The notes under the pieces: generated by a model | The model's input: only the letters and a program-made list of their open reading frames with translations | What the model was told of the DNA's origin: nothing | Databases searched by the model: none | DNA from: Microtetraspora niveoalba | GTDB lineage: Bacteria > Actinomycetota > Actinomycetes > Streptosporangiales > Streptosporangiaceae | DNA length: 64,000 nucleotides | Reading direction: 5' to 3' | Assembly: GCF_001570405.1 (NCBI RefSeq) | Contig: NZ_BBYM01000026.1 | Span: forward strand, 62,001-126,000 | Shown here: in pieces, positions 2,925 through 54,131 of the stretch | Position numbering within the stretch: position 1 is the stretch's first letter | How the letters are laid out: the number at the start of each line of letters is the position of its first letter | Made by a program: the position numbers and the translations under genes

Positions 2925-3114
2925 GCTTCCTGCCTTCGGTGGGCGCCTGTCTGTTCCGGTGGTGCGACGCCGCGACGACCATGGTCGCGCCCCGCCCCCC
3001 CGTCCCGCCAGACCCGTCCCGCTGGGCGGTACGGAACGTTCCGCCACTTGCCTCCCGCCCGTAGCCTCCGATAGGTCGGATTGACCGGTCAACGACGTCG
3101 ATGAGAGGAACGCG
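2925..3114. promoter_or_regulatory. Divergent fadD3/SDR promoter region with three palindromic sites
   Basis: Three elements are visible. TCCCGCTGGGCGGTAC (3017-3032) is a diverged copy of the palindrome found upstream of the other steroid operons; it lies 93 bp from the fadD3 start and 83 bp from the SDR start. CGGAACGTTCCG (3032-3043) is a perfect 12-bp palindrome. TTGACCGGTCAA (3081-3092) is another perfect 12-bp palindrome close to the SDR start. None fits the KstR2 consensus as I recall it (AnCAAGnnCTTGnT). GAGAGGAAC at 3103-3111 is a plausible SDR ribosome-binding site. Confidence 0.5.
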
Positions 3115-3891
3115 ATGAACGCGACGGTGGACTTCAGCGGCCGTGCCGTACTGGTGACCGGAGGCACCAAGGGCATCGGATTCGTGATCGCGGAGAGATT
3201 CCTTGCCGCGGGCGCGGACGTGGCCGTGTGCGGGCGCGGCGAGCCCGAGGTCCTGCCCGCCGCGGACGGCAGGACCGCGCGGTTCTTCGCGGCCGACATC
3301 CGGGACGCCGGGGCCGCCGCGGAGTTGGTGGAGCGGGTCGTGGCCGAGTTCGGACGGCTCGACGTGCTGGTGAACAACGCCGGAGGGTCGCCGGACGCGG
3401 ACGCCGCCACGGTCTCGCCCCGCTTCGTCGAGCGGATCGTGGACCTGAACCTGCTCGCGCCGTTCTACGTGGCGCAGCCGGCCAACAAGGTGATGCGCGA
3501 GCAGGAGACCGGCGGGTCGATCATCAACATCGGCAGCGTGTCCGCGCACGACCCGCAGCCCGGCACCGCGGCCTACTCGGCCGCCAAGGCGGGCCTGCTC
3601 GTGCTGACCCGCGCGCTGGCGCTCGAATGGTCCCCCAAGGTGCGGGTGAACCACATCACGACCGGGCTCATCCGCACCGAGGCCGCCGCGCAGGTGTACG
3701 GCCCGGACGAGGGCGCCTCGGTCGCGAAGGTGATCCCCATGGGCAGGATGGCGGTGCCCGCCGACGTGGCGGGCGCCTGCCTCTACCTGGCCAGCGACCT
3801 GGCGGCCTACGTCACGGGCGCGGACATCGCGGTGCACGGGGGCGGCGAGATCCCGGCGCGCTACCTGGCGGCCCGGCCGGCCACCCCCTGA
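3115..3891 (+). CDS. SDR oxidoreductase, divergent from fadD3
   Basis: A 258-residue classical short-chain dehydrogenase. The nucleotide-binding TGGTKGIG motif is near residue 17, NNAGG follows the central strand, the catalytic Ser is in NIGSVSAHD, and YSAAK supplies Tyr and Lys. The C terminus GADIAVHGGGE is family-typical. Divergence from fadD3 and the shared operator-like sites suggest a role with the HIP-CoA (C/D-ring) branch, for example oxidising a ring or side-chain hydroxyl; this is inference. NAD(H) or NADP(H) preference cannot be read with confidence. The ATG at 3115 follows a GAGAGGAAC ribosome-binding site. Confidence 0.85.
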   Translation: MNATVDFSGRAVLVTGGTKGIGFVIAERFLAAGADVAVCGRGEPEVLPAADGRTARFFAADIRDAGAAAELVERVVAEFGRLDVLVNNAGGSPDADAATVSPRFVERIVDLNLLAPFYVAQPANKVMREQETGGSIINIGSVSAHDPQPGTAAYSAAKAGLLVLTRALALEWSPKVRVNHITTGLIRTEAAAQVYGPDEGASVAKVIPMGRMAVPADVAGACLYLASDLAAYVTGADIAVHGGGEIPARYLAARPATP

Positions 3892-3927
3892 CCGGCGCCC
3901 CGAACCGCGGCCCGGCCGGCCACGCCA

Positions 3928-3955
3928 CGGGCGGCCGCCCATGGCGGGCCGCCCG
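3928..3955. terminator. Bidirectional terminator-like hairpin
   Basis: CGGGCGGCC (3928-3936) pairs perfectly with GGCCGCCCG (3947-3955) across a 10-base loop. It lies between the convergent ends of the SDR (3891) and the MaoC hydratase (4040). Confidence 0.5.
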
Positions 3956-4039
3956 GGTGGACGGCCCTGCGGGTCGCCACGGCCAGGGAGTGTCCGACGA
4001 ATGCTCACCGCGCACGGCAGGGCGTCCGCCGGACCCGAC

Positions 4040-4879
4040 CTAACCGCGGAACCGGGCCCGGCCACCGGAGATCGCCGTACGTCCGTCCGCGGCGGTCTCG
4101 AAGAGCACCGCCGCCGGGTCGTCCCGGTCCGTCCAGGCCCGCGCGTCCAGCCGGTCACCCGGGAAGACGGGGGAGGCGAACCGCCCCTCCAGCTCGACCA
4201 GGTCGGCGGGATGCGCGCCCACGGCCGCCGCCAGCGGCAGGGTCACCGCCGCCAGGGTGCACAGGCCGTGCATGAACGGCTTCGGCATCCCGGCCGCCTT
4301 CGCCACCTCGGGGTCGATGTGCATGTGGTGCCGGTCGCCCAGCAGGCGGTACAGCGCCGCCTGGTTGGGCGAGGTGCGGACCTCCAGCTCGTGGTCGGCG
4401 GGCGTCTCGCGCGGCTTGGGCCGGGAGGCGCCGCGCTCCCCGCCGAACCCGCCGCGTCCGGGCGCGAACAGCGACCAGGTGGCCTGGAAGCACTCGCTCT
4501 CCACCTCGACGTCGAAGACGGCGGCGCTGCCCTTGTCCCACACGGCCGCGACCCGGGCCCGCATCGTCAGCTCGCCGGACGCGGGCAGCGGCGCCCGCAC
4601 GACCAGCCGCTGCGAGCCGTGCACGGCGGTCGTGACGTCGAACGCGCCGAGCGAGCCGAGCGCGTCCGGGGCCCACTGGGCCTGCGTCAGCGCGAACGTC
4701 GGCAGCACCCGCAGCCGTTCCTCGAAGACCAGGTCCAGGTCGGTGGCCGCCGCGCCGACGGCGAGCGCGTAGAGGATCACGTCCCGCTCGTCGTACACGA
4801 CCGTGCGCTCGCCCAGGTCGTGGCCCGCCCACGCGCCCGCGTCCCGCTCCTTCGGGTTTCCGCTCACATCCGCCGTCAT
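4040..4879 (-). CDS. Double-hotdog MaoC enoyl-CoA hydratase, Hsd4B-like paralogue 1
   Basis: A 279-residue double-hotdog protein with a FAS1-like N-terminal half (LRVLPTFALTQ) and a MaoC hydratase C-terminal half. The hydratase-2 signature is present as LLGDRHHMHIDPEVAKAAG, keeping the Asp/His pair but replacing the usual N-P-L with H-H-M. The family ((R)-specific or steroid 2-enoyl-CoA hydratases such as Rv3538/Hsd4B) hydrates an alpha,beta-unsaturated side-chain acyl-CoA. A second, more canonical copy is at 38978-39844. This is the last gene of the igr-like operon, 17 bp after ltp2. The odd active-site loop may reflect a different substrate. The ATG at 4879 aligns with the paralogue. Confidence 0.85.
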   Translation of the reverse strand: MTADVSGNPKERDAGAWAGHDLGERTVVYDERDVILYALAVGAAATDLDLVFEERLRVLPTFALTQAQWAPDALGSLGAFDVTTAVHGSQRLVVRAPLPASGELTMRARVAAVWDKGSAAVFDVEVESECFQATWSLFAPGRGGFGGERGASRPKPRETPADHELEVRTSPNQAALYRLLGDRHHMHIDPEVAKAAGMPKPFMHGLCTLAAVTLPLAAAVGAHPADLVELEGRFASPVFPGDRLDARAWTDRDDPAAVLFETAADGRTAISGGRARFRG

Positions 4880-4896
4880 GCCGGCCTCTCCCCCGA

Positions 4897-6081: not shown

Positions 6082-6536
6082 GCGTTGTCTCCCTTCGGGA
6101 GCCGTACGACGACGGTGCCGGTCACGTGGGGGCCGAGCGCGTTGACGCCGCGCACGGAGACCTCGACCCGGCGCTCCGCGTCGTCCTTCGCGGTGACCTC
6201 GCCGGTCAGCACCATGGTGTCGCCGGGATAGTTGGGCGCGCCGAGCCGGATCCGGATCGCGGCGACGACCGCGGCCGGGCCCGCCCAGCGGGTGACGAAC
6301 CGTTCGACCAGGCCGTTGCTGGTCAGGATGTTCATGAAGACGTCCCTGGACCCGCGCTCGACCGCCAGCTCGGGATCGTGGTGCACGTCCTGGTAGTCGC
6401 GGCTCGCGATCGCGGTCGCGACGATCAGGGTCCTGGTCAGCGGGATCGACAGCTCGGGGAGCCGGTCGCCGACCGCGACCGCGTCGTAGGCGAGGCTCGG
6501 CCGCGTCGCGGCGGCCTTTCCGGCGGCCGCCGTCAT
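6078..6536 (-). CDS. chsH1: ChsH1-type MaoC subunit of the C3 side-chain enoyl-CoA hydratase
   Basis: A 152-residue single-hotdog protein (Rv3541c-like, about 20 residues longer at the N terminus). In the known system ChsH1 pairs with the MaoC half of ChsH2 to hydrate the 17-side-chain enoyl-CoA made by ChsE1/ChsE2. ChsH1 supplies the catalytic Asp/His; here SRDYQDVHHDPELA carries candidate residues. It is coupled on both sides: its ATG overlaps the chsE1 stop (ATGA at 6533-6536) and its stop overlaps the ltp2 start. Confidence 0.88.
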   Translation of the reverse strand: MTAAAGKAAATRPSLAYDAVAVGDRLPELSIPLTRTLIVATAIASRDYQDVHHDPELAVERGSRDVFMNILTSNGLVERFVTRWAGPAAVVAAIRIRLGAPNYPGDTMVLTGEVTAKDDAERRVEVSVRGVNALGPHVTGTVVVRLPKGDNA

Positions 6537-12753: not shown

Positions 12754-12875
12754 AGGGGGATCCTCCGTCCGGACTCCGTCTCAGGGAGCACGGCTGACGT
12801 TAGCCAGCGGAGGGTCCCCCGACTCCGGGCAATCCCGCTGAACGGGAAGGCCGCGCGGGGCGGCCGCGGCGGGGG
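12754..12875 (-). promoter_or_regulatory. Promoter region of the OYE-to-MaoC operon with palindromic operator
   Basis: TCCCGCTGAACGGGAA (12833-12848) contains a palindrome, TCCCG-N-T-N-A-N-CGGGA, whose near edge is 80 bp from the OYE start. It is one of the best copies of the motif repeated across this window. No gene is seen in the gap. Confidence 0.55.
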
Positions 12876-19363: not shown

Positions 19364-19432
19364 TCCCGCTCACCGGGAACATCTCTTCGACCACGGCGCG
19401 CACACGCGGGAGGGCGTCCCGCTGGCCGGAAA
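19364..19432 (-). promoter_or_regulatory. Two tandem copies of the locus palindrome
   Basis: TCCCGCTCACCGGGAA (19364-19379) is a perfect TCCCG-N-T-N-A-N-CGGGA site whose near edge is 68 bp from the SDR start. TCCCGCTGGCCGGAAA (19417-19432) is a weaker copy 53 bp further upstream. The tandem arrangement is unique in the window. Confidence 0.55.
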
Positions 19433-19460: not shown

Positions 19461-20063
19461 TCAGCCGCGGGCCGCCTCGGCGGTCACCGCCTCGGCGATG
19501 AAGGTCGCCGCGGCCGCCGATCGCGCCGGCAGATCGTAGGTGTGATCCAGTCGCCAGCACCGGAGGACCGACAGGTAGACGGCCCCGATCATCTCCGTCA
19601 GCAGTTCCGGATCGTGATCGGTCCGCACGTCGCCCTGGTCGAGCCCGGCGTCGACGAGCCGCCGGAGTTGCGCGTGGAACATCGCGTTCCGCGGCGCGCT
19701 CACCTCGGGCCGGGCGAGGTCCGGCTCCAGCTCGGCCGTCACGACCTCGAGGTAGCCGGGATGACGTTCGGTCGAGCGTACGACGGCCTCGAACACCCTG
19801 CGGATCCGTTCCCGTGTCGGGAGCGGAAGGGCGAGGTGCTGGTCGATGAACGCCGCCAGCAGGTCCATCTCGTCCGCCCACAGCGCGGCCAGCACGTCGT
19901 CCTTCGACCGGAAGTAGTTGAAGAACGTTGCGCGGGACACTCCGGCGGCTTGGGCGAGATCGTCCGCCGTGGTGCCGGCCACGCCGCGTTCGGCGTACAG
20001 GATCTTGGCGGCCTTCAGTATCCGCGCGTGCGTCTCGCGCTTGTTGCGCTCCCGAGCGCCCAT
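19461..20063 (-). CDS. TetR-family transcriptional regulator
   Basis: A 200-residue TetR regulator. The helix-turn-helix is at about residues 29-57 (GTTADDLAQAAGVSRATFFNYFRSK in the canonical place). The C-terminal domain ends DHTYDLPARSAAAATFIAEAV, common in actinomycete TetR proteins. It lies between the kinase/CrtC-like pair and the SDR-importer genes, all on one strand, so either group could be its target. The nearest unexplained operator-like site is TAGAC-N5-GTCTA at 22555-22569. The ATG at 20063 precedes GARERNKRETHARIL, a typical N-terminal arm. Confidence 0.85.
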   Translation of the reverse strand: MGARERNKRETHARILKAAKILYAERGVAGTTADDLAQAAGVSRATFFNYFRSKDDVLAALWADEMDLLAAFIDQHLALPLPTRERIRRVFEAVVRSTERHPGYLEVVTAELEPDLARPEVSAPRNAMFHAQLRRLVDAGLDQGDVRTDHDPELLTEMIGAVYLSVLRCWRLDHTYDLPARSAAAATFIAEAVTAEAARG

Positions 20064-22705: not shown

Positions 22706-24919
22706 TCAGCCGCGCTCTCCGAGGGTGATGTCGACCCGTTCGAGCACGCCCCCGGTGAACGGGTAGGCCGCCGGATAGTCGCCCACGGGCGAGCCGGAGG
22801 TCCGGCCGACGTCGAACGTCTCGTCGATGGAGAACAGGGCCGGGGGCGTGACGCCGATCCGGTCCCTGCCCGCCGTGACGCCGTCCACGACGAGGGCGGC
22901 CTCTCCCCCGGCCGCGACGCCCCCGTCGTGGCGGAAGTCCACCTCGATCGTGTGGCGTCCGGGGCCGAGACCGTCCGCGGCGGTGAGCGTGAGCGAGGCC
23001 AGCGCGAAGGTGCGGTAGACGAAGGCCGGCCGGCCCGCGCCGTCCAGGTACAGCGCCCAGCCCGCCGCGCGGCCGCCCATCGTCGCGATCACCCCGTACG
23101 GCGCGGCGGGGCCGGCGTGGACCACCGCGCGCAGCGACCACGACCTGCCGAGCACGCGCGGGGCGTTCGACTCGGGGATGCCGACGGCGCCGGGACGATA
23201 GGTGAACCGCTTCCTGCCGCGCGCCAGGTTCGGCATCCGGGTGCGGGCGACCCGCGCGTCGCGCAGCGGGAGGATGCCCGCCCGCGCCGCCTCGCTCTCG
23301 AAGAGCGCCCGCATCCGGCGCAGCCTCCCGGGCTCTGCGGCGGCCAGGTCCTCGGCCTGGCTGAAGTCCCGTTCGAGGTCGTACAGCTCCCAGACGTCGT
23401 CCTCGAAGGGGCGGTCCGGCCCCGGGCGCCCGACCGACCACGGTGTGCCGCCGTGGTGCGCGCTCGCCATCCACCCGTCGCGGTAGATCGAGCGGTGCCC
23501 GTACACCTCGAAGTACTGGGTGGTGTGCCGCTCGGGCGCGTCCGGGTCGGCGAAGGTGTAGGCCAGGCTGACGCCGTCCATCGGCAGTTGCGTCACGCCG
23601 TCCACCTCGGCGGGCGCGGCGAGTCCGGCCGCCTCGAGGATCGTCGGCGCGATGTCGTTGACGTGGGAGAACTGGCCGCGCAGGCCGCCCCGGTCGGCGA
23701 TCCCGGCCGGCCAGGTGACCACCAGGGGGTTGCGCGTGCCGCCGAGGTGCGAGGCGACCTGCTTCACCCACTTGAACGGGGCGGTCAGCGCCCACGCCCA
23801 CCCGGCCGGATACTGCGGGTACGTGCTCGGGCCGCCGATCTCGTCGAGGCGGGCCAGCCGGGACTCGACGCTCTCCGGCAGGCCCTGCAGCGCGCCCATG
23901 TAGTCGAGGCTGCCGGGCACGCCTCCCTCGGCGCTGCTGCCGTTGTCCCCGACGACGTAGAGGAAGAGCGTGTCGTCGAACAGCCCGTCGTCCTTGAGCG
24001 CCCGCACCAGCCGTCCGATCTGGACGTCGGTGTGCTCCAGGAACCCGGCGTAGACCTCCATAAGGCGTTCGGCGACCGCCTTCTCGGCGTCGCCCAGGTC
24101 GTCCCAGGCCGGGATCTCCTCCGGCCGCGGCGTCAGCCGGGTGTTCTCCGGCACCACCCCGAGCCGCTTCTGGCGTTCGAGGGTCTCCTCCCGCAGGGCG
24201 TCCCAGCCCCGGCGGCACCTGCCCCGGTACTTCTCGCTCCACCGGGCGGGCACCTGGAGCGGCGCGTGCGTCGCGCCCGGGGCGAGATAGAGGAAGAACG
24301 GCCGGTCCGGGGTGAGCGCGGCGCGCAGCCGCACCCACTCGATGGCCCGGTCGACCAGGTCCTCGGTCAGGTGGTAGTCCGGCACGTCGGGCCGGGACAC
24401 CGGCGTCGTCCCCTCGTACAGCGTCGGGTCGTACTGGTCGGTCTCGCCGCCGAGGAAGCCGTAGAACCGGTCGAACCCCTGCCCGGTTGGCCAGCGGTCG
24501 AACGGCCCGGCCTGGGTGGACTCCCACGGCGGCGCGAGGTGCCACTTGCCGAAGGCGGCGGTGCCGTAGCCGGCCCGCCGCAGCGTCGTGGCGACGGTCG
24601 CGGTCTCCGGCCGGAGCACGCCGCGATATCCCGGGTGGGCGTTGGCCGAGTTCAGCACGGTGCCGACGCCGGTGACGTGCGGGTCCCGGCCGGTGAGCAG
24701 CGAGGCGCGGGTGGGCGAGCAGATCGCGGTGGTGTGGAACCGGTTGTAGCGCAACCCCTCGGCGGCGAGCGCGTCGAGCGCGGGCGTGTCGATCGGGCCG
24801 CCGAAGGTCCCGGCCGCGCCGAAGCCGACGTCGTCGAGCAGCACGACCACGACGTTGGGGCGCCGCGCCGGTCCCGCCCCGCCCGCGAGGACGTCGTTCT
24901 CACCGGAGGTCGTCGCCAT
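22706..24919 (-). CDS. Cytosolic arylsulfatase-family sulfatase
   Basis: A 737-residue type I sulfatase. C67 in ICSPTRASLLTG is the Cys converted to formylglycine (C-x-P-x-R). Asp29-Asp30 (LLDDVGFG) bind calcium, GKWHLAP is the second signature, and VVGDNGSSAEGG supplies the remaining metal ligands. The C-terminal ~170 residues form a beta-rich domain seen in AtsA/AtsD-like enzymes. No signal peptide is present, so it acts inside the cell, as mycobacterial AtsA-type enzymes do. In this setting desulfation of a steroid or bile-acid sulfate is plausible. GAGGAG precedes the ATG. A formylglycine-generating enzyme is not in the window. Confidence 0.92.
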   Translation of the reverse strand: MATTSGENDVLAGGAGPARRPNVVVVLLDDVGFGAAGTFGGPIDTPALDALAAEGLRYNRFHTTAICSPTRASLLTGRDPHVTGVGTVLNSANAHPGYRGVLRPETATVATTLRRAGYGTAAFGKWHLAPPWESTQAGPFDRWPTGQGFDRFYGFLGGETDQYDPTLYEGTTPVSRPDVPDYHLTEDLVDRAIEWVRLRAALTPDRPFFLYLAPGATHAPLQVPARWSEKYRGRCRRGWDALREETLERQKRLGVVPENTRLTPRPEEIPAWDDLGDAEKAVAERLMEVYAGFLEHTDVQIGRLVRALKDDGLFDDTLFLYVVGDNGSSAEGGVPGSLDYMGALQGLPESVESRLARLDEIGGPSTYPQYPAGWAWALTAPFKWVKQVASHLGGTRNPLVVTWPAGIADRGGLRGQFSHVNDIAPTILEAAGLAAPAEVDGVTQLPMDGVSLAYTFADPDAPERHTTQYFEVYGHRSIYRDGWMASAHHGGTPWSVGRPGPDRPFEDDVWELYDLERDFSQAEDLAAAEPGRLRRMRALFESEAARAGILPLRDARVARTRMPNLARGRKRFTYRPGAVGIPESNAPRVLGRSWSLRAVVHAGPAAPYGVIATMGGRAAGWALYLDGAGRPAFVYRTFALASLTLTAADGLGPGRHTIEVDFRHDGGVAAGGEAALVVDGVTAGRDRIGVTPPALFSIDETFDVGRTSGSPVGDYPAAYPFTGGVLERVDITLGERG

Positions 24920-25019: not shown

Positions 25020-25703
25020 GTGACGGCGGACGCGGCGCCGTCCCCGGACACGCGGATCCGGCTGATCGAGGTGGCGGAGCGGCTCTTCGCCGAGCACGGC
25101 GTCGCCTCCGTCTCGTTGCGCACCGTCGGCGCGACCGCCGGGCAGCGCAACAACTCGGTCACGCAGTACCACTTCGGCTCCAAGGACGGACTGATCGCGG
25201 CCATCGCCCGCCACCGCTCGGCGCCCATCAGCGAGCGGCGCATGGAGATGGTCGCCGAGCTGCGCGCGGCCGACGGGCCGCCGAGCGTCGAGTCGCTCAT
25301 CCGGCTGCTCGTGGTCCCGCTCGCCGAGTCGATGGCCGGCTCCCGGAGGGAGACCTGGTACCTGCGGTTCCTGGCGAGCGCGCTCGACCATCCGCTGATG
25401 CGGGACCTCGACGAGCCGGGCGGCCCCGAGCATCCCGGCATCGCGTACATGCTGGAGGAGCTCCGGCTGCGGCTGCCCGGGACGCCGGCCGCGGTCTTCG
25501 AGCGCCGGACCAGGTGGATGGCCGCCATCGTGGTCCGCGTCCTGGCCGACCACGAGCGGCAGCTCGCCTCGTCCGAGGGCTCCGCCGTCCCGCTCGACGA
25601 GGTCGTCTCCGACCTCGTCGTGAGCATGGCCGCGCTGCTGCGGGCGCCCCGCCCGCCCCGCTCACCGGCCGGCGCCCCGCCGGACGCCATTCCGTCCCAG
25701 TGA
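25020..25703 (+). CDS. TetR-family regulator, probable repressor of the divergent sulfatase
   Basis: A 227-residue TetR regulator. The HTH lies at about residues 33-60, ending [14 protein letters not shown]. The N-S-V-T-Q-Y-H-F recognition region is of the type seen in several actinomycete TetR proteins. The GTG start at 25020 follows GGGGAGG at 25008-25014. Divergence from the sulfatase and the 42-bp inverted repeat between them predict autoregulation and control of the sulfatase. The ligand is unknown; the released alcohol or the sulfate ester would be natural candidates. Confidence 0.85.
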
Positions 25704-25748
25704 CCGGGAAGCCGCGTTCGACGGCGGCCGCGATGGCCAATATTGGCC
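25695..25748 (+). promoter_or_regulatory. Locus palindrome plus GGCCAATATTGGCC upstream of the CoA ligase
   Basis: TCCCAGTGACCGGGAA (25695-25710) is a copy of the shared motif ending 79 bp before the ligase ATG; it overlaps the last codons of the TetR gene. GGCCAATATTGGCC (25735-25748) is a perfect 14-bp palindrome 41 bp before the start and may overlap the promoter. Confidence 0.5.
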
Positions 25749-44531: not shown

Positions 44532-46229
44532 TCAGTTGGTTTCGAGGCTGGCCTCGCGCGTGGATCCGCGCGTGGATTCGCGCGTGGATTCGCGCGTGGA
44601 TTCGCGCGTGGTTTCGCACGGGGCGTCGCCGGCGAGCACACGCTTGGCCCACCGGTAGTCCGCCTTGCCGCTGGGTGAGCGCATGACCTGGTCGACGACG
44701 ACGAGGGCGGCCGGCACCTTGTACCCGGCGATCCGGGTGCGGCAGTGGGCCCGCAGCTCCTCCCTCAGCTCCGCGGCGTCGGAGACGTCCACGCCCGCGC
44801 GCATCTCCACGACGGCCCCGACCCGTTCACCGAACCGGGGGTCGGGCACTCCGGCGACGAGCACGTCCATCACGCCCGGGTGGGACTTGAGCGCCTGCTC
44901 GACCTCCTCGGGGAAGACCTTCTCGCCGCCGGAGTTGATGCAGCCGGAGCCGCGGCCGAGCAGGACGGTGCCGCCGTCCGCCTCGATCCTGGCCATGTCG
45001 CCGAGCACCGCCCAGCGGACGCCGTCGACGACGGGGAACGTCTTCGCGGTCTTCTCCGGGTCGTTGTAGTAGCCGAGCGGGACGTGCCCGGTCCTGGCGA
45101 TGAGCCCGATCTCCGGCGAGCCGGGGGCGATCGGCCGGAAGCTGTGGTCGATGACGGTGACGCGGGGGTTGGGGGCGAGCCGCATGAGGCCGTCCGCCCC
45201 CACCTGGAGCTTCCCGTCCACGCCGGACTCCGACGCGCCGAAGCCGTCGTTGATGTACAGATCCGGGATCAGCGCCGTGGCCTCCTCGCGGACCGGCCGC
45301 GACAGGAGCGCGCCTCCCGAGCCGAGCACCTTCATGGAGCTCAGGTCGTACTCGGCTCCGTGCTCGCGGATGGCGTCGACCAGCGGGCGGGCGATCGCGT
45401 CGCCGACCACGGTGACGATGACGACGCGCTCCCTCTCGATCAGCCGCAGCGCCTCGACCGGGTCGTAGCGGGGCATCAGGATCACCGGCGACCCGGCGAG
45501 GAGGCCGCTGAACAGGGTGTAGGAGGCAGCCCCGTGCATCAGCGGCGCGGTGATCAGGTAGTTGAGCGCGTCGCCGCCCACCGCGGCGGCGGCCAGCTCC
45601 TCCGCGGTCCGGTACGGCGGGCCGTAGTGGTTGCCACCGTTGAGCGCGGCGAAGTAGAAGTCCTCGTGCCGCCACACGACGCCCTTGGGCATCCCGGTGG
45701 TGCCGCCGGTGTAGATGACGTAGTGGTCGCCCGGCGTGCGCTCGTCCGCCATGGGGGCGGTGCGCGGCCGACCGGCGAGGGCCGCCTCGTAGCCGACGAC
45801 GCCGACCCCGTCCGGCCACGACGTCGCGGCCGGGTCCCCGACGACGACCGCGTGCCGCAACTCGGGGCACCGGTCCGCGATCCCGGCGGCGGCGGGGGCG
45901 AACCCCTCCTCGACGACGAGCGCCACCAGGTCCGCGTCGTTGTACAGGTAGTGCAGCTCGTGGTCGGTGTAGCGGTAGTTGATGTTGATCGGCACCGCCC
46001 GGATCTTCAGGCAGGCGAGGAGGGCCTCGACGAACTCCGCGCCGTTGAGCATGTGCAGCCCAACGTGCTGGTGCGGTTCGACACCGGCCGACATGAGGTG
46101 ATGTGCCAGCGCGTTGGCACGTTCGTCGAGTTCGGAGTGGCTCAGTCGACGGTCACCGCAGACGAGGGCCGTGCGATCCGGGATCGCGGCGGCCACCGAC
46201 TCGTAGAGAGTCGCCAGGTTCAACGTCAT
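44532..46229 (-). CDS. fadD19: FadD19-like steroid side-chain CoA ligase
   Basis: A 565-residue ANL ligase close to FadD19 (Rv3515c, 548 aa), which activates C24-branched or C26 steroid side-chain acids. Blocks: VICG-like ALVCGDRRLSHSELDERANALAHHL, NYRYTDHELHYLYND, YTGGTTGMPKGVVWRHEDFYF, PLMHGAASYTLFSGLL, GDAIARPLVDAI, SGCINSGGEKVFPEEVEQAL, GVPDPRFGERV and SPSGKADYRWAKRVL. After this conserved end comes an unusual tail of STRE-type tetrapeptide repeats. It heads the operon and is divergent from hsd4A across a region rich in operator-like sites. Confidence 0.92.
   Translation of the reverse strand: MTLNLATLYESVAAAIPDRTALVCGDRRLSHSELDERANALAHHLMSAGVEPHQHVGLHMLNGAEFVEALLACLKIRAVPININYRYTDHELHYLYNDADLVALVVEEGFAPAAAGIADRCPELRHAVVVGDPAATSWPDGVGVVGYEAALAGRPRTAPMADERTPGDHYVIYTGGTTGMPKGVVWRHEDFYFAALNGGNHYGPPYRTAEELAAAAVGGDALNYLITAPLMHGAASYTLFSGLLAGSPVILMPRYDPVEALRLIERERVVIVTVVGDAIARPLVDAIREHGAEYDLSSMKVLGSGGALLSRPVREEATALIPDLYINDGFGASESGVDGKLQVGADGLMRLAPNPRVTVIDHSFRPIAPGSPEIGLIARTGHVPLGYYNDPEKTAKTFPVVDGVRWAVLGDMARIEADGGTVLLGRGSGCINSGGEKVFPEEVEQALKSHPGVMDVLVAGVPDPRFGERVGAVVEMRAGVDVSDAAELREELRAHCRTRIAGYKVPAALVVVDQVMRSPSGKADYRWAKRVLAGDAPCETTRESTRESTRESTRGSTREASLETN
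44557..44616. repeat. 12-bp tandem repeat x5 encoding the FadD19 tail
   Basis: Five 12-bp units (CGCGTGGATTCG; first and last with one change) at 44557-44616. Read on the minus strand they give repeated ESTR/GSTR tetrapeptides at the extreme C terminus, outside the conserved ligase fold. Confidence 0.85.
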
Positions 46230-46402
46230 GGCGAGAGACTAGAATCAATTCTTATTTCCCACAACGGCCCGGTCCCGGTGAGTGGCAACGGCACATCGGA
46301 TACCCGGAGATCTCCTCCACTCAGCGGGACAAGCCCCTTGGTCAAAATTAGAATACGTACTAATTTTGCCCCCTCGAACCGTGATCTGACAGGAGCAGGG
46401 AC
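46230..46402. promoter_or_regulatory. Divergent fadD19/hsd4A control region
   Basis: Two classes of site are present. AT-rich inverted repeats: AGAAT-CA-ATTCT (46241-46252), 12 bp from the fadD19 start, and AAAATTAG (46344-46351) / CTAATTTT (46360-46367); the core TAGAATACGTACTA (46349-46362) matches 6 of 8 fixed bases of the KstR consensus TnnAACnnGTTnnA. Then GTCCCGGTGAGTGG (46272-46285) and CCACTCAGCGGGAC (46317-46330), an inverted pair differing at one base, each beginning like the locus palindrome. TAGAAT could also serve as a -10 box for hsd4A. Confidence 0.6.
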
Positions 46403-47341
46403 ATGAGCCCGAACATCAGCCTGGAGGGCAGGACCGCCGTCGTCACCGGCGCGGGCGCCGGACTCGGACGCAGCGAGGCCCTGGCGCTCGCCGCGCGCGG
46501 CGCGAACGTCGTCGTCAACGACATGGGTCCGGCCGCCGAGGAGGTCGTGGCCGAGATCAGGGCGCTCGGCCGGGAGGCCGTCGCGGTGACCGGCGACGTG
46601 AGCGAGTGGTCCATGGGCGACCGCCTGGTCCGGACCGCGGTGGACACGTTCGGCGGCCTCGACATCCTGGTCAACAACGCCGGCGTGCTCCGCGACAAGA
46701 TGTTGTTCAACCTCGCCGAGTCCGACTGGGACGACGTCGTCCGCGTCCACCTCAAGGGGCACGCGGCGGTGTCCCGCGCGGCGGCGGTGTACTGGCGCGA
46801 GGCGAGCAAGGCCGCGGGCGGGCCGGTCTACGGCCGCGTGATCAACACCTCGTCCGAGGCGTTCCTCTTCGGCTCGGCGGGCCAGCCCAACTACTCGGCG
46901 GCCAAGGCGGGCATCGTCGCGCTGACCCTCTCGACCGCCCAGGGCCTGTCCCGGTACGGCGTGCGCGCCAACGCGATCTGCCCGCGCGCCCGCACCGGCA
47001 TGACGGCGGACGTGTTCGCCGAGGGCGGGAACGCCCCCGGCGGCCTGGACGTGCTGGCGCCGGAGCGGGTGGGCACCTTCGTGAGCTACCTCGCCTCCCC
47101 CGCCGCCGACGAGATCAGCGGCCAGGTGTTCGTGGTGTACGGCGACATGGTCGCGCTGATGGCCGCCCCGACGGTCGAGCGGAAGTTCACCGCCGAGGGC
47201 GGCGTCTTCTCGGTCGAGGAGCTCGACGCGCAGCTCACGCCGTACTTCGACGGGCGCGGCCCGTACCGGACCTACGCCGCCTACAGCGTGGCCCAGCTCG
47301 ACATGACGGGGGTGCAGAACGCCGCCGCGTCGAAGAAGTGA
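46403..47341 (+). CDS. hsd4A: Hsd4A-like 17-beta-HSD/3-hydroxyacyl-CoA dehydrogenase
   Basis: A 312-residue SDR with the extended MFE-type layout of Hsd4A (Rv3502c, 317 aa). TGAGAGLGRSEALALAARGA binds NAD, DMGPAAEEV follows, NNAGVLRDKM, then Ser in NTSSEAFLFGS and YSAAK, and ICPRARTGMTADVF. The C-terminal FSVEELDAQLTPYF region is an Hsd4A hallmark. It oxidises the 3-hydroxyacyl side chain produced by the hydratase and may also act on ring hydroxyls. It is divergent from fadD19. The ATG follows ACAGGAGCAGGGAC. Confidence 0.9.
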   Translation: MSPNISLEGRTAVVTGAGAGLGRSEALALAARGANVVVNDMGPAAEEVVAEIRALGREAVAVTGDVSEWSMGDRLVRTAVDTFGGLDILVNNAGVLRDKMLFNLAESDWDDVVRVHLKGHAAVSRAAAVYWREASKAAGGPVYGRVINTSSEAFLFGSAGQPNYSAAKAGIVALTLSTAQGLSRYGVRANAICPRARTGMTADVFAEGGNAPGGLDVLAPERVGTFVSYLASPAADEISGQVFVVYGDMVALMAAPTVERKFTAEGGVFSVEELDAQLTPYFDGRGPYRTYAAYSVAQLDMTGVQNAAASKK

Positions 47342-47391: not shown

Positions 47392-47422
47392 ACCCGTTCC
47401 GGGACGCGCCGCTCGTGAAGGG

Positions 47423-48199: not shown

Positions 48200-48220
48200 T
48201 CGTCCGCTCTCCCTCGGTGT

Positions 48221-48285
48221 CGTGTTGCCCGGTCGTGTTGCCCGGTCGTGATGCCCGGTCGTGATGCCCGGTCGTGATGCCCGGG
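48221..48285. repeat. 13-bp tandem repeat x5
   Basis: Five units CGTGTTGCCCGGT / CGTGATGCCCGGT fill the gap between the 3-alpha-HSD start and the next SDR stop (48287). The 13-bp unit is not a multiple of three, in keeping with its non-coding place. Confidence 0.88.
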
Positions 48286-48286
48286 T

Positions 48287-49033
48287 TCAGGTGCCCGATC
48301 CGCCGTCCACCCGGATCTCGGCCCCGGTCAGGTAGCCGCCGTCGGGTGAGGCGGCGAACGCGACGGCCGCCGCGATCTGCTCGGGCGCCGCGGTGCCGAG
48401 CAGGGACCGGATCCGCCCGAAATAGCGGGCGTCCAGTCCCTCGGGGATCACGTTCCCGCTGGTCAGCGGGGTCGCCACGGTGCCGGGCGAGATCGGGACG
48501 ACCCGGATGCCGCGCCCCACCACCTCGGCCGCCAGGCTGAGCGAGAACGCCAGCACCGCGCCCTTCGACGCGGCGTACGCCGTCATGTACGGGTTGCCCT
48601 GGGTGGCGGCGGACGACGCGATGTTCACGATGACGCCGGTGCGGTCGGGCAGGTGCCGCAGCGCCTCGCGGCAGAACAGCGCGGTGCCGACCAGGTTCAC
48701 GGAGAACAGCAGGTTCAGGTCCTCGACCGACAACGAGCCGATCGGCGTCGTCCGGTGGATGCCCGCGACGTTCACCAGGACGTCGATGCCGCCCAGCTCC
48801 GCGGCCGCGGCGCGCACGGCCGCGACGACCGCGGGCTCGTCGGTGACGTCGGCGACGTGCGGGACGAAACGCCCCGGCCCGGTCGCCGCCTCCCCGGTCT
48901 CGGCCAGGCCGTCCTTCGCGCGGTCCACGGCGAAGACCGCCGCGCCCTCCGAGACGAGCCTGATCGCGGTGGCCCGTCCGATGCCGGACCCGGCACCGGT
49001 GATCAGGACTCTCACGCCGTCGTAGCGGTTCAC
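48287..49033 (-). CDS. SDR oxidoreductase, HSD-like (paralogue of 62399-63166)
   Basis: A 248-residue classical SDR. TGAGSGIGRATAIRL, DVLVNVAGIH (NVAG in place of NNAG), NIASSAATQGNPYMTAYAASKGA with Ser/Tyr/Lys, and PISPGTVATPL are shared almost block for block with the SDR at 62399-63166, including NVAG. The pair probably arose by duplication within this locus and may oxidise different ring hydroxyls (for example C7 or C12) or side-chain hydroxyls. GTG at 49033 has GGAGGG/AGGGGA upstream. A perfect copy of the locus palindrome is 97 bp upstream. Confidence 0.83.
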   Translation of the reverse strand: MNRYDGVRVLITGAGSGIGRATAIRLVSEGAAVFAVDRAKDGLAETGEAATGPGRFVPHVADVTDEPAVVAAVRAAAAELGGIDVLVNVAGIHRTTPIGSLSVEDLNLLFSVNLVGTALFCREALRHLPDRTGVIVNIASSAATQGNPYMTAYAASKGAVLAFSLSLAAEVVGRGIRVVPISPGTVATPLTSGNVIPEGLDARYFGRIRSLLGTAAPEQIAAAVAFAASPDGGYLTGAEIRVDGGSGT

Positions 49034-49129
49034 GTCCCCTGCCCTCCCGGCCGTCGGGGCGCCCGGTCCCACTCCGGCGCTCTCGGCCGCCCCGGACGCT
49101 ACGCGTACGGCGGGCCGGCCGAGAGCGGG

Positions 49130-49145
49130 GTCCCGGTCAGCGGGA
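49130..49145 (-). promoter_or_regulatory. Perfect locus palindrome upstream of the SDR
   Basis: Read on the minus strand, TCCCGCTGACCGGGAC is a perfect TCCCG-N-T-N-A-N-CGGGA palindrome, 97 bp upstream of the SDR start at 49033. Confidence 0.55.
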
Positions 49146-49168
49146 GGGACGGGGGTTCGCCGGGCCGT

Positions 49169-49213
49169 GCCGGCCGATGCGGTGCCGGCCGATGCGGTGC
49201 CGGCCGATGCGGT
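49169..49213. repeat. 15-bp tandem repeat x3 downstream of the KstR-like gene
   Basis: Three exact copies of GCCGGCCGATGCGGT with partial flanking units, ending 9 bp from the KstR-like stop codon at 49223. Confidence 0.85.
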
Positions 49214-49222
49214 GCCGGCCGG

Positions 49223-49840
49223 TCAGGCCTCGGCGGCGTTGGACCGGGGGGCGAGCAGCAGCCGCGAGGCGAGCCGGATGTCGCTCTCCATGTCCGGGAT
49301 CGAGGCCCGCCCGTTGAGGCTCGACTGCAGCACGCCGTACCAGCACTGCATGAGCAGCCGGATCAGGGTGACGTCCTGGGCGGTGGGGTTGTCGATGCCG
49401 AGCGCCCGCAGCACGATGTCGCGGAACGTGCTGTCGATCCGGCCCGCGTCGGCGACCGCCGCGGCGTTGGCGGCGTTGGCGGAGTTGAGCATCGCGGTCG
49501 CCAGCGCGGGCCTGCGCAGCAGTTGCCTGCTCGCGCTCACCAGCAGCTCGCCGACCGCGTCCTCGGGGCTGACCCCGGGCTTCGGGCGGGTGACGGTCTC
49601 GTTGAACCGGTCGACCTGCTCGGCCATCACCGCCGTGAACAGGTGGGTCTTGGACGGGAAGTAGCGGTACAGCGTGCCGATCGCGACGCCGGCGGCCTTC
49701 GCCACCTCGTGCATCTGGACCCGTTCCAGGCCCTTGTCGGCGGCCAGGTGCGCGGCCGCGCGGAGGATGCGCAGATGCCGGGCGCGCTGCTCGGGCGAGC
49801 TCGGCTCGGCCGGCGGCCTGGCTTCGGCGATTCTCGGCAC
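49223..49840 (-). CDS. KstR-like TetR-family regulator
   Basis: A 205-residue TetR regulator whose N-terminal domain resembles KstR: RHLRILRAAAHLAADKGLERVQMHEVAKAAGVAIGTLYRYFPSK (read in parts, residues about 20-62) against KstR's RKRILDATMAIASKGGYEAVQM..VGTLYRYFPSK. The C-terminal part LIRLLMQCWYGVLQSSLNGRAS also follows KstR's VSDVWLSNLLAWLTRRAS in pattern. KstR represses cholesterol genes and is released by steroid-CoA esters. The GTG at 49840 has GAGGGGAAG upstream; an ATG at 49870 would add 10 residues without a good ribosome-binding site. An imperfect palindrome, TGTCTTGTCGAAACA on the minus strand, lies about 13 bp upstream of the GTG. Confidence 0.78.
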   Translation of the reverse strand: MPRIAEARPPAEPSSPEQRARHLRILRAAAHLAADKGLERVQMHEVAKAAGVAIGTLYRYFPSKTHLFTAVMAEQVDRFNETVTRPKPGVSPEDAVGELLVSASRQLLRRPALATAMLNSANAANAAAVADAGRIDSTFRDIVLRALGIDNPTAQDVTLIRLLMQCWYGVLQSSLNGRASIPDMESDIRLASRLLLAPRSNAAEA

Positions 49841-49906
49841 GGTCTTCCCCTCAGTGTTTCGACAAGACATTACACACGGGTCCGCGCGGGTGCGTGAACT
49901 GGTCCG

Positions 49907-49922
49907 TACCGGTGAGTGGGAT
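49907..49922 (+). promoter_or_regulatory. Diverged copy of the locus motif upstream of kstD
   Basis: TACCGGTGAGTGGGAT lies 77 bp upstream of the kstD ATG and shares CCGGTGAGTGG with the element at 46275-46285. It is half of the palindrome rather than a perfect copy. Confidence 0.4.
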
Positions 49923-49998
49923 GCCCCGGCGCCGGTACGCCGCGCTGCGCTTCCCTTGGGGGCGGACAGCGCGAGGCGTTCACGGAAGGACGGGTGGC

Positions 49999-51531
49999 AT
50001 GGCCGGTACCGGGCTGTGGGACGACGAGTACGACGTGGTGGTGGCGGGCTCCGGCGCCGGGGCGATGACGGGGGCGCTCACGGCCGCCTCGCACGGCCTG
50101 CGCACCGCCGTCCTGGAGAAGACGTCCGTGCTCGGCGGCACCTCCGCGTACTCCGGCGCGGCCGTCTGGCTGCCGGGCACCGGGGTCCAGGAGCGGGCCG
50201 GCGTCGGGGACTCCGCCGAGTCGGCCCGCACCTACCTGCGCGCCCTGCTCGGCGAGGACGCCGACGGCCGGCAGGAGGCGTTCCTGGCGACCGCGCCCGA
50301 AGTCGCCGACTTCCTCGAGCGCGACCCGGCGATCGAGTTCGAGTGGCGTCCCTTCCCCGACTACTTCGCCGCCCCGGGGCGCATGGACATGGGGCGCTCG
50401 TTCGTCCCGCTCGACCTGCCCGCCGAGCGGCTCGGCGACCTCGCCTCCCTGGTGCGCCCGCCGGTGGACCGCGACCGCGCCGGGCGCGGCCACGCCGCCG
50501 CGCCGCTCTCCCAGGGCCGCGCCCTCATCGGGCGGCTGCTGCTCGCACTGACGAACACGGGGAACGCCACCGTGCGCACCGGCACCCGCCTGCGCGCGCT
50601 CGTCGTCGAGGACGGCCGGGTGGCCGGCGTCGAGGCCGAGACCGCGGACGGCCCGGTGCGGATCCGGGCGCGGCGCGGCGTGCTGCTCGCGGCGGGCGGC
50701 TTCGAAGGGAACGGCGCGATGCGCGCGGAGCACGGCGTCCCCGGGTCCGCCGCGTGGTCGATGGCCCCCGCCGGCGCAAACACGGGCGACCCGATCCTGG
50801 CCGCCGTCGCCGCCGGCGCGGCCGTCGACCTGATGGACCAAGCGTGGTGGTGCCCCGGCGTCGAGGACGAGAAGGGCGGCGGCTGCTTCACGCTCGGCTT
50901 CCGCGGCGGGCTCGTGGTCGACTCCACGGGCCGCCGCTTCGCCAACGAGTCGCTCCCGTACGACCGGATGGGGCGGGAGATGGCCGCCGCGCCGGAGCGG
51001 GTGCCGGCGTACGTCGTCTTCGACTCGCGGCACGGCGGCGCGCTTCCGGCCATCTCGATCCCGTCCCTCCCGAGCTCGGCCTGGGTCCGGGCCGACACGC
51101 TCGGCGAGCTGGCGGAGAAGCTGGGCCTGCCCGCCGACGCGCTGACCGCCGCGGTCGAGCGGTTCAACGGCTTCGCCCGGGATGGCGTGGACGCCGACTT
51201 CCACCGGGGCGAGGACCCCTACGACCTGTTCTTCGCCGACCGGTCCGGGAACGCGGGCCCGAACCCGTGCCTGGTGCCGGTGGACCGCCCGCCGTACCAC
51301 GCGGCGCGGCTGGTGCTCAGCGACCTGGGCACCAAGGGCGGCCTGCGCACCGACACGGAGGGCCGCGTGCTGGACGGCGGGAGCCGTCCGATCGCGGGCC
51401 TGTACGCCGCGGGCAACTCCAGCGCCTCCTTCGCCGGGCGCGTCTATCCCGGCCCGGGAGTGCCGATCGGATCGGCGATGGTCTTCGCCTACCGGGCCGT
51501 GAAGGACATCGTCAAGATCGGCGATTCGTGA
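49999..51531 (+). CDS. kstD: 3-ketosteroid Delta1-dehydrogenase (KstD)
   Basis: A 510-residue FAD enzyme. The dinucleotide-binding fold is at the N terminus (YDVVVAGSGAGAMTGALTAA), TSVLGGTSAYSGAAVW follows, and the C-terminal YPGPGVPIGSAMVFAYRA places the conserved Tyr (about 483) and Gly four residues on, matching Tyr487/Gly491 of Rhodococcus KstD1 as recalled. KstD introduces the C1-C2 double bond; with KshA it opens ring B. GGAAGGACGGGTGG lies before the ATG at 49999. It is divergent from the KstR-like regulator. 51532-51562 has AAGGAG for the next gene, so the lipase may be co-transcribed. Confidence 0.88.
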   Translation: MAGTGLWDDEYDVVVAGSGAGAMTGALTAASHGLRTAVLEKTSVLGGTSAYSGAAVWLPGTGVQERAGVGDSAESARTYLRALLGEDADGRQEAFLATAPEVADFLERDPAIEFEWRPFPDYFAAPGRMDMGRSFVPLDLPAERLGDLASLVRPPVDRDRAGRGHAAAPLSQGRALIGRLLLALTNTGNATVRTGTRLRALVVEDGRVAGVEAETADGPVRIRARRGVLLAAGGFEGNGAMRAEHGVPGSAAWSMAPAGANTGDPILAAVAAGAAVDLMDQAWWCPGVEDEKGGGCFTLGFRGGLVVDSTGRRFANESLPYDRMGREMAAAPERVPAYVVFDSRHGGALPAISIPSLPSSAWVRADTLGELAEKLGLPADALTAAVERFNGFARDGVDADFHRGEDPYDLFFADRSGNAGPNPCLVPVDRPPYHAARLVLSDLGTKGGLRTDTEGRVLDGGSRPIAGLYAAGNSSASFAGRVYPGPGVPIGSAMVFAYRAVKDIVKIGDS

Positions 51532-51562
51532 TCAACTAAATGATCGACCAAGGAGCCTCCCC

Positions 51563-52801: not shown

Positions 52802-52821
52802 CGATCAGGTGAACCACCGCG

Positions 52822-52851
52822 GGCGGGCCGCCGCGACCCGGGCGGCCCGCC
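52822..52851. terminator. Bidirectional hairpin terminator
   Basis: GGCGGGCCGCC (52822-52832) and GGCGGCCCGCC (52841-52851) are exact reverse complements with an 8-base loop, between the convergent lipase and hsaA ends. Confidence 0.6.
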
Positions 52852-52856
52852 GCCGA

Positions 52857-54023
52857 TCAGATCATGTTGTCCTCGACGGCGAGGCCGAACTCGGCCTTGC
52901 CGTACATGGCCAGGGCGCGCTCGACGTCGTTGGCCACGTGGACGCTGCCGGCGTGCGCGTCCCGCCAGGCCCGCTCGATGGGGTTGCCGCGCTGGAGCGA
53001 GTTCCCCCCGGCGGTCTTGAACAGGATGTCGATCGCCTCCAGCACCCGCTCGGTGGCGCGCACCTGGTCCCGCCGGGCCCGCAGCCGCAGCTCCATCGGG
53101 ATCTCCGTGCCGTTCACCGCGTGCTCGTACACCTCGCGCACGTTGCGGTCCATCTGCAGGATCGCGGCGTCGATCTCGGACGCGGCCCGGGCCACCGCCA
53201 CCTGGGCGAACTGGTCCTCGGCGAACCGGCCGCCGCCCAGGCTGAGCCGTACCCGGTCGCGCATCGCGGCGATGTACGACGCGTAGCAGCCCGCGACGGC
53301 GCCGACCACCGCGCCCGTGATCGCCGAGGTGAAGACGGTCGCGAAGGGCATCCGGTACAGCGGGCCGGCGTTCACCTTCTGCCCGGGGCCGCGGAGCTGC
53401 GCCTGCTCGTAGTTGCGCATCGTCCGGTACTCGGGCACGAACGCGCGCTCGACGATGATGTCGTTGCTGGCGGTGCCGCGCAGCCCGATGACGTCCCAGA
53501 CGTCCTCGATCCGGTAGTCCTCGCGCGGGACCAGCACGGTCATGAAGTCGACCGGCCTCCCCTCCGCGCCCACGATCAGCCCGCCGATCAGCGCCCACGA
53601 CGCGTGCTCGCACCCCGAGGAGAACTTCCACCGCCCGGACAGCTCGTAGCCGCCCTCCACCGGGGTCAGCCGCCCCACCGGCGCGTACGACGAGGCGACC
53701 AGCGTGTCGGGGTCCTCGCCCCACACGTCGTCCTGGGCGGCCTCGGCGAACAGGCCGAGCTGCCACGGGTGGACGCCGAGCACGGCGGTCACCCATCCGG
53801 TCGAGCCGCACACCCCGGAGATCTCACGGACGACCTCGTAGAACCGCACCGGGTCGCTCTCGGCTCCGCCGTACCGGCGGGGCTGCAACATACGGAAGAC
53901 GCCGACCTCGACGAGCTCCCGGACGGTCTCCGCCGGGACGCGGCGGTTCTCGTCGGTGGCCGCGGCCCGCCCCGCGATGTACGGCAGCAGCGCGCGAACA
54001 GACTCCAGGACCTCGTTGCTCAT
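52857..54023 (-). CDS. hsaA: HsaA-like 3-HSA hydroxylase (oxygenase component)
   Basis: A 388-residue flavin monooxygenase of the acyl-CoA-dehydrogenase fold, resembling HsaA (Rv3570c, 394 aa) along its length: RRVPAETVRELVEVGVFRMLQPRRYGG, GVCGSTGWVTAVLGVHPWQLGLF, VWGEDPDTLVASSYAP, SSGCEHASW, PREDYRIEDVWDVIGLRGTASNDI, ELRLRARRDQVRAT, and WRDAHAGSVHVANDVERA (as separate blocks). HsaA hydroxylates the phenol ring of 3-HSA using FMNH2 from a reductase (HsaB), which is not in the window. It is divergent from kshA, joining consecutive pathway steps under one control region. Confidence 0.92.
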   Translation of the reverse strand: MSNEVLESVRALLPYIAGRAAATDENRRVPAETVRELVEVGVFRMLQPRRYGGAESDPVRFYEVVREISGVCGSTGWVTAVLGVHPWQLGLFAEAAQDDVWGEDPDTLVASSYAPVGRLTPVEGGYELSGRWKFSSGCEHASWALIGGLIVGAEGRPVDFMTVLVPREDYRIEDVWDVIGLRGTASNDIIVERAFVPEYRTMRNYEQAQLRGPGQKVNAGPLYRMPFATVFTSAITGAVVGAVAGCYASYIAAMRDRVRLSLGGGRFAEDQFAQVAVARAASEIDAAILQMDRNVREVYEHAVNGTEIPMELRLRARRDQVRATERVLEAIDILFKTAGGNSLQRGNPIERAWRDAHAGSVHVANDVERALAMYGKAEFGLAVEDNMI

Positions 54024-54115
54024 GGGGTGCGTCTCCGTGTCACGTTCGATGGGGTGTTCGTGATGAGGGTGCATCCATGATGGTCCTTCGGGGTACGGGG
54101 GCACGACCCGGGGCA

Positions 54116-54131
54116 TCCCGCCCACTGGGAC
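54116..54131. promoter_or_regulatory. Locus palindrome between hsaA and kshA
   Basis: TCCCGCCCACTGGGAC lies 93 bp from the hsaA start and 77 bp from the kshA start, nearly the same spacing as the copy between fadD3 and its SDR (93 and 83 bp). It matches the motif on both arms with changes near the centre. Confidence 0.5.

Follow-up and report, generated by a model that had tools for sequence, protein, structure and literature searches.

A palindrome at the promoters of a bile-acid gene cluster

The window analyzed here, a 64-kb stretch of Microtetraspora niveoalba DNA (positions 62001 to 126000 of contig C26 in genome G000, which comprises 8.47 Mb in 98 contigs), holds a steroid gene cluster whose promoters share a 15-bp palindrome. 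Two genes in the window score above the curated cutoffs of their models, casI (steroid-22-oyl-coenzyme A [CoA] synthetase; 1016 bits, cutoff 900) and casG (steroid-24-oyl-CoA synthetase; 946 bits, cutoff 750), and the cluster is therefore taken to be a bile-acid cluster. It also has Pfam matches to a KshA-type oxygenase, a FAD_binding_2 protein (read as kstD), thiolases, and short-chain dehydrogenases/reductases (SDRs). The names kstD, hsd4A, fadD19, and fadD3 come from a first-pass annotation of the sequence or from Pfam and NCBIfam matches; gene starts and intergenic status are approximate, being those of a home-made gene caller. As argued below, comparison of sites, promoters, and regulators makes it quite probable that the palindromes are operators of an IclR-family activator encoded outside the window.

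All ten copies of the palindrome named in the first-pass annotation were recovered at their coordinates. Three are exact copies of TCCCGNTNANCGGGA (12833, 19364, and 49131), and a fourth (25695) fits the broader pattern TCCCRNTSANYGGGA exactly. Compared with TCCCRNTSANYGGGA, the degenerate form of a motif already in print as Lcin1, the ten sites carry 0 to 2 mismatches each. Two more 1-mismatch copies, absent from the earlier list, lie at 6431 and 38690, both within predicted genes. The ten sites are as follows, with the spacing from palindrome to −10 element (pattern TAnnnT) and the distance from the near edge to the gene, which varies with the start codon chosen.

3017..3031, plus strand: Lcin1-type site, 2 mismatches, facing the SDR gene at 3115-3891; −10 TAGCCT at 3062-3067, spacing 30; near edge 93 and 84 bp
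12833..12847, minus strand: exact site facing the operon of an old yellow enzyme (OYE)-like gene and casI; −10 TAACGT at 12802-12797, spacing 30; near edge 80 or 146 bp
19364..19378, minus strand: exact site facing SDR/ABC-importer genes; no TAnnnT at 29-31 (TTCACT at 28, TATTGC at 33); near edge 68 bp
19417..19431, minus strand: weaker tandem site, 2 mismatches, facing the same SDR gene, 53 bp from the 19364 copy; no −10 at 29-31; near edge 121 bp
25695..25709, plus strand: exact TCCCRNTSANYGGGA facing casG; TATTGG at 25741, spacing 31, not TAnnnT; near edge 80 or 122 bp
46273..46287, minus strand: site with 1 mismatch facing the fadD19-like CoA ligase gene at 44532-46229 (start at 46094 by the home-made caller); −10 TAGTCT at 46241-46236, spacing 31; near edge 44, 116, or 179 bp
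46315..46329, plus strand: site with 2 mismatches facing the hsd4A-like SDR gene at 46403-47341; −10 TAATTT at 46361-46366, spacing 31; near edge 73 or 87 bp (site taken at 46316)
49131..49145, minus strand: exact site facing the SDR gene at 48287-49072 (start at 49033 by the home-made caller); −10 TAGCGT at 49101-49096, spacing 29; near edge 59 or 98 bp
49907..49921, no strand assigned: site with 1 mismatch and a GGTA end, between tetR (49223-49840, minus strand) and kstD (49999-51531, plus strand); TAATGT 34 bp on towards tetR; near edge 67 and 78 bp
54116..54130, plus strand: site with 1 mismatch facing the kshA-type gene at 54196/54208-55365; −10 TACCTT at 54161-54166, spacing 30; near edge 66 or 78 bp

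The neighboring copies at 46273 and 46315/6 resolve into two divergent promoter sites, towards fadD19 and hsd4A, respectively. Near edges had earlier been placed 68 to 97 bp from a gene, apart from those of 19417 (121 bp) and 46273 (44 bp); in our list such distances depend on the start codon. No copies had been reported from 27.5 to 38.3 kb. This holds for matches to TCCCGNTNANCGGGA with no more than 1 mismatch; at 2 mismatches, that region has three strings (28497, 31704, and 36337). The central proposal, that one shared motif marks the steroid promoters, is borne out by the positions of these sites and by their enrichment, described below. A sulfatase gene (PF00884) also lies inside the cluster, at 22706-24919, possibly for sulfated bile acids or steroids.

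Genomic distribution, conservation, and promoter geometry

Exact TCCCRNTSANYGGGA occurs at 17 places in the genome, 4 of them within the window (Poisson P = 3.7 × 10−6), and the reversed pattern has a single match in the whole 8.47 Mb. Matches across the genome largely showed the functional bias that the first-pass annotation had anticipated: 8 of the 17 exact sites are at the window cluster, hsaA, an hsaD-like gene, an hsaE-like gene, or a second kshA-type gene. Of the rest, 3 are intragenic (on C15, C28, and C53, within predicted genes), 2 (C55:4664 and C55:32736) lack an evident link to steroid genes, and 4 are ambiguous. One site (C2:182770) lies between hsaA (NF045629; 655 bits, cutoff 450) and an IclR gene, another (C8:215111) precedes the second kshA-type gene, a third (C23:10957) precedes the hsaD-like gene (277 bits, cutoff 400), and a fourth (C23:7275) stands 91 bp before the hsaE-like hydratase gene (257 bits, under the HpaH cutoff of 351.5). 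Further exact sites are found about 1 kb from the IclR-1 gene introduced below (C2:184719; −10 at 30), about 220 bp before a FAD_binding_2 gene (C17:247624), and before a solute-binding-protein gene and a CoA-ligase gene (C19:76664 and 77795), the last three without the −10. On C26 itself, the 62 kb preceding the window hold no intergenic site with up to 1 mismatch. The 4.6 kb following it hold one (L009:1771, at G000:C26:127771), a 1-mismatch site between an extradiol-dioxygenase (BphC/HsaC-like) gene and an SDR gene.

The sites were also expected to be conserved upstream of orthologous operons, and for the most part they are. In the same-genus genomes G001 to G003, and also in G018, genes that correspond in size and order (FadD, SDR, OYE, and Ltp2 sizes) again have sites in front of them, correspondence being judged by those two features; the tandem pair before the SDR gene is also present in G003 and G018. 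We then considered 79 loci around IclR-2, a candidate regulator gene of the M. niveoalba genome, and its relatives in named genomes (the best 80 of 82 matches), spanning Microtetraspora, Streptomyces, Amycolatopsis, Saccharopolyspora, Geodermatophilus, Nocardioides, and Nocardia. Intergenic sites with up to 1 mismatch numbered 265, in 75 of the 79 loci, compared to 0 to 13 for each of 19 permuted palindromes, and the consensus of 264 pooled sites was TCCCG(C/G)T(G/C)A(G/C)CGGGA. The palindrome is a real element, upstream of steroid promoters and conserved over many actinobacterial genera.

The sites keep a fixed distance to a −10 element. Among 288 nonidentical site/direction records (sites placed 40 to 140 bp before a gene), TAnnnT started 29 bp (30 records), 30 bp (54 records), or 31 bp (27 records) after the palindrome, 111 in total; any other spacing from 0 to 79 had TAnnnT in at most 5 cases, and about 2.4 were expected over spacings 29 to 31 together. 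A recount confined to the IclR-2 loci gave TAnnnT at 29 to 31 in 113 of 299 promoter-placed site/direction pairs, representing 15 of 17 genus groups (Nocardia and Kineosporia lacked it), and the 19 permuted palindromes gave 0 to 2 promoter-placed pairs each, none with the −10. Since orthologous promoters are not independent, the genus count weighs more than a P value. On the far side of 188 sites facing a gene in one direction, 11 had TAnnnT at 29 to 31, perhaps marking unannotated divergent promoters. In the window, 6 of the 10 sites (3017, 12833, 46273, 46315, 49131, and 54116) have the spaced −10 towards a gene. No −35 signal was seen in 116 records aligned on a −10 at 28 to 32, and numbering from the first T of the −10 as −12 places the palindrome at about −57 to −43. 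Such a placement, close to −50 and lacking a −35 signal, is more in keeping with an activator than with a repressor, so the suggestion of an activator site made from spacing in the window gains support.

We give practically no credence to the idea that the palindrome is a chance or structural feature of G+C-rich DNA without a regulator. The genome is indeed G+C rich, and the intragenic and unlinked exact sites noted above would suit such an origin; this explanation is nevertheless contradicted by the permutation counts and the −10 spacing, as well as by the recurrence of sites at corresponding places in relatives.

Candidate regulators

Sixteen IclR_C genes were counted from 19 matches in the M. 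niveoalba genome, none of them on contig C26. Three stand beside steroid genes and palindromes: IclR-2 (C23:11740-12564) adjoins a flavin-reductase (hsaB-size) gene and the hsaD-like gene, which carry the same sites; IclR-1 (C2:182899) is beside hsaA; and IclR-3 (C8:213481) is beside a flavin reductase gene and a kshA-type gene. IclR_C is above cutoff in all three, and IclR-1 has both PF01614 and PF09339. IclR-1, -2, and -3 have in common the recognition helix LPRS[ST]xHRIL, with the nearest sites 115, 320, and 163 bp away, respectively, whereas the 12 other aligned IclR genes of this genome lack the exact helix and have no site with up to 1 mismatch in loci of 2.8 to 15 kb (Fisher P = 0.0022). 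One more IclR gene, on C50, is outside the helix alignment, and its 2.6-kb locus has no site. The strict helix is also found in four IclR proteins of G019 and in one each of G031, G232, and G306.

The helix can be set beside that of IclR group 1 regulators, for which the available text of one study gives the operator consensus GKTYCRYW3-4RYGRAMC; in TtgV, contacts are made by Ser48, Thr49, Gln51, and Arg52, preceded by Pro46-Arg47. In the same study, His at position 32 weakly prefers C(10) and Arg28 prefers G/C one base outside the palindrome (PMC8222616). The corresponding residues of the IclR proteins here are P-R-S-T-x-H-R (P-R-S-S-x-H-R in IclR-1), and by our mapping the operator has C at the place preferred by His32. 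In our register, the palindrome agrees in part with the odd (W3) group 1 operator: it has C/G where that operator has T/A, six bases from the center, its middle base is S rather than W, and its outermost G/C is not conserved.

These observations suggest a mechanism in which an IclR dimer would bind TCCCRNTSANYGGGA centered near −50, just upstream of a TAnnnT −10 with no recognizable −35, and would recruit RNA polymerase in response to an intermediate of bile-acid or steroid breakdown. IclR-2 is the likely activator of the window cluster, and IclR-1 and IclR-3, with the same recognition helix, probably share the operator. Where a genome has several IclR paralogues, these may recognize a common operator, each in response to a steroid intermediate of its own. 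More broadly, we lean slightly toward a view in which the LPRS[ST]xHRIL IclR clade would be the master switch for the catabolism of bile acids and steroid rings in Streptosporangiaceae, Streptomyces, Saccharopolyspora, Amycolatopsis, Geodermatophilaceae, and Nocardioides, acting from a fixed site near −50 and counting a KstR-like TetR among its targets.

Three arrangements of IclR genes deserve mention in their own right. Around IclR-1 (L001:10771-12734) lie three sites that have A at position 6. Two are exact and the third carries 2 mismatches; all have a −10 at spacing 30, in one case towards hsaA, in another towards a tyrosine-phosphatase-like gene, and in the last towards a region with a SnoaL-like gene. 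In G019, four IclR paralogues share the helix, and 19 site-like sequences with up to 2 mismatches are listed (L105, L106, L107, L108, and L114), an arrangement that may show paralogue specialization. An 801-codon open frame in M. niveoalba (G000:C6:74434-76317; L277) has three IclR_C matches and perhaps encodes a fused double IclR protein.

The window itself encodes three TetR proteins, as follows.

49223..49840, minus strand: KstR-like TetR (KstR3 candidate), a probable target and a rival regulator
19461..20063, minus strand: TetR with no close relative in 40 related genomes, an unlikely regulator
25020..25703, plus strand: TetR with close orthologues only in G002 and G003 (71 to 75%), an unlikely general regulator

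The first-pass annotation had put forward the proteins at 19461 and 49223 as candidates, a proposal that now looks weak. TetR 19461 is poorly conserved, with only 27 to 35% matches in 3 of the 40 relatives, and was set aside as a general regulator, as was TetR 25020, whose matches outside G002 and G003 are 41% or less. TetR 49223 is better conserved (93 to 96% in G001 to G003, 83% in G018, and 69% in G019). It scores 122.8 bits with the KstR model NF033703, below the equivalog cutoff of 280; a second KstR-like protein, at C3:101454, scores 133.3 bits. KstR3 (49223-49840) is probably a target of the proposed IclR activator.

KstR3 is also a rival candidate. By analogy with KstR, it would bind the palindrome and repress until a bile-acid CoA thioester releases it, an explanation that we regard as unlikely. 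It is encoded in the cluster, and a match of at least 46% identity was present in 46 of the 49 IclR-2 genomes searched, so co-occurrence by itself does not distinguish between the two. Relatives of IclR-2 (L187, 63%) and of KstR3 (49%) also occur together in Pimelobacter simplex, which we take to be the same species as Nocardioides simplex. Nor do site counts in family f1 (7 to 17 exact sites in 6 IclR-2 carriers versus 0 to 4 in 35 noncarriers) decide between them, because all six carriers hold both genes; in other families the counts overlap (carriers G140 with 1 and G278 with 2, noncarriers G335 with 8 and G418 with 7). A site with up to 1 mismatch is present in the promoters of KstR3-like tetR genes in 39 of 46 loci, usually with the GGTA end (these loci comprise KstR3-like genes of at least 43% identity, with weaker TetR loci, same-genome repeats, and 15 Streptomyces-type KstR loci left out). 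On the other side, the position near −50 without a −35 signal suits an activator better than a repressor, and the 15-bp palindrome is odd whereas the KstR motif is an even 14 bp. In addition, two genomes that gave no KstR3 match retain exact sites at hsaA-type genes. In G163 (no match at E 1e-35), an exact site with a −10 at 30 lies 75 bp before the HsaA gene (673 bits, cutoff 450); in Kineosporia (no match at E 1e-10, with 64 candidates scored), an exact site lies between HsaA- and HsaD-like genes, with no −10 at 28 to 32. At E 1e-35, G177 had no TetR match and G432 no KstR3 match. G177 has three 1-mismatch sites with a −10 at 31 and deviating centers, next to genes that are not clearly steroid genes (a Baeyer-Villiger-type monooxygenase and an ABC importer), and G432 has one 1-mismatch site with no −10. 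Absence of KstR3 from G163, G177, and G432 is provisional because 8 first-look candidates were scored per genome. Conversely, G314 and G395, with TetR matches of 44 to 45% and no IclR gene in the 19-kb locus, have no sites; those TetR proteins stand in another context and are probably other paralogues.

The two regulators could also act together, with IclR activating from the palindrome and KstR3 acting as a brake on the same or overlapping DNA at a subset of promoters such as its own. This arrangement, which overlaps with activation by IclR and does not exclude it, has in our view a modest chance of being right. It would suit the recurrence of the GGTA end at the tetR/kstD site over many genera; against it, no second operator was seen at tetR promoters, and the asymmetry may only tune affinity. 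Another palindrome, CGACGnnnnCGTCG, is enriched upstream of tetR, but its distance of about 215 bp exceeds the gap usually found between tetR and kstD, and for that reason it was rejected as an operator. The asymmetric GGTA end of the window copy (49907-49921) is itself usually kept over many genera, including in G031.

Several results weigh against regulation by IclR. TAnnnT at 29 to 31 is missing from 186 of the 299 pairs and likewise from window sites 19364, 19417, 25695, and 49907. The 79 loci were themselves selected by IclR, and 4 of them (L130, L132, L133, and L154) have no intergenic site with up to 1 mismatch; L154 holds IclR-2 and has neither KstR3 nor a site, whereas G018, apparently the genome of L133, has perfect sites elsewhere. 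The IclR protein of C31 (L280), which has no site, reads ARSTAHRLL and keeps the R-S-T-x-H-R contact residues; counted with the helix group, it changes the association to 3 of 4 versus 0 of 11 (P about 0.009, by arithmetic). In a set of 22 IclR loci, a site with up to 1 mismatch was found within the flanks (up to 1.5 kb) in 14 and in none of the other 8. The outermost G/C, the predicted Arg28 contact, is not conserved at these sites. The close company of KstR3 and the sites at its promoters, described above, belong here too, as do the few KstR3 candidates scored in G163, G177, and G432 and the finding that, upstream of KstR3-like tetR genes, the site was the only conserved palindrome seen, a pattern that TetR autoregulation would produce. 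Finally, the KstR3 orthologue KR76_18060 is the lithocholic acid (LCA)-induced regulator of bile-acid cluster E in N. simplex, according to the available text of that study (PMC7593942).

Lcin1 and other known systems

The first-pass annotation proposed an undescribed steroid regulator. The motif proved to be already in print: Lcin1, TCCCGGT[C/G]ACCGGGA, was predicted by phylogenetic footprinting in Nocardioides simplex VKM Ac-2033D, where it lies upstream of cluster E and hsaEGF (PMC7593942). The regulators KR76_18060, named among KstR3 orthologues, and KR76_18605 were proposed there as its factors because only those regulators were induced, and the authors called for further research; the available main text does not contain the word IclR and leaves the Lcin1 regulator open (PMC7593942). 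The regulator that we favor, an IclR protein outside the window, is to that extent a new assignment. Searches of the literature with IclR as a term returned nothing linking IclR to the Lcin1 motif and nothing on the −10 geometry, and other uses of the name Lcin1 in the literature searched were unrelated by their listing. An iclR is named in the legend of a steroid cluster of R. ruber Chol-4 in the available part of one paper (PMC6498646), and the literature covered included parts of two papers on S. hirsuta (PMC8708139, PMC9782250). Relative to the literature searched, the motif is known and the IclR assignment and −10 geometry are new, while a catabolic IclR activator regulon is of an ordinary kind. 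An orphan motif thereby gains a specific candidate regulator and mechanism. In family f19 genomes without an IclR-2 match (G115, G165, G238, and G299), near-symmetric copies of TCCCGATSATCGGGA recur and may mark another regulon with a related operator.

KstR and KstR2 control steroid genes in mycobacteria and rhodococci. The earlier statement that the palindrome is neither of their motifs agrees with a scan of the window for both: KstR (TnnAACnnGTTnnA) had one exact match, at 24735 inside coding sequence, and no intergenic match with up to 1 mismatch, and KstR2 (AnCAAGnnCTTGnT) had no exact match and no intergenic match at 1 mismatch. Both were accordingly rejected as the identity of the palindrome. 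Our data suggest that, in many actinobacteria, steroid and bile-acid breakdown is controlled through IclR activation rather than KstR repression, a difference that would be of consequence for the engineering of steroid-producing strains and for sequence-based prediction of steroid regulons. If the IclR clade is indeed a master switch, its logic would be opposite to that of the KstR repressor of mycobacteria and rhodococci.

The system described here resembles KstR and KstR2 in serving steroid control; those proteins are TetR repressors with other motifs. With Lcin1 it shares the consensus and the placement upstream of bile-acid genes and an hsaE-type gene, here at the casI/casG cluster and the hsaE-like hydratase gene; the available text of the Lcin1 study has no promoter geometry, whereas here the motif is traced over many genera and tied to IclR (PMC7593942). 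The partial likeness to IclR group 1 and to TtgV/PobR-type regulators lies in the odd length and register of the operator, the P-R-S-T-x-(Q/H)-R helix, and the control of catabolic genes; the sites differ in having C/G rather than T/A six bases from the center, S rather than W centrally, and outer G/C that is not conserved (PMC8222616). As far as the available text of that study extends, group 1 regulators serve aromatic or sugar genes, whereas the sites here hold a tight position near −50 and serve steroid genes (PMC8222616).

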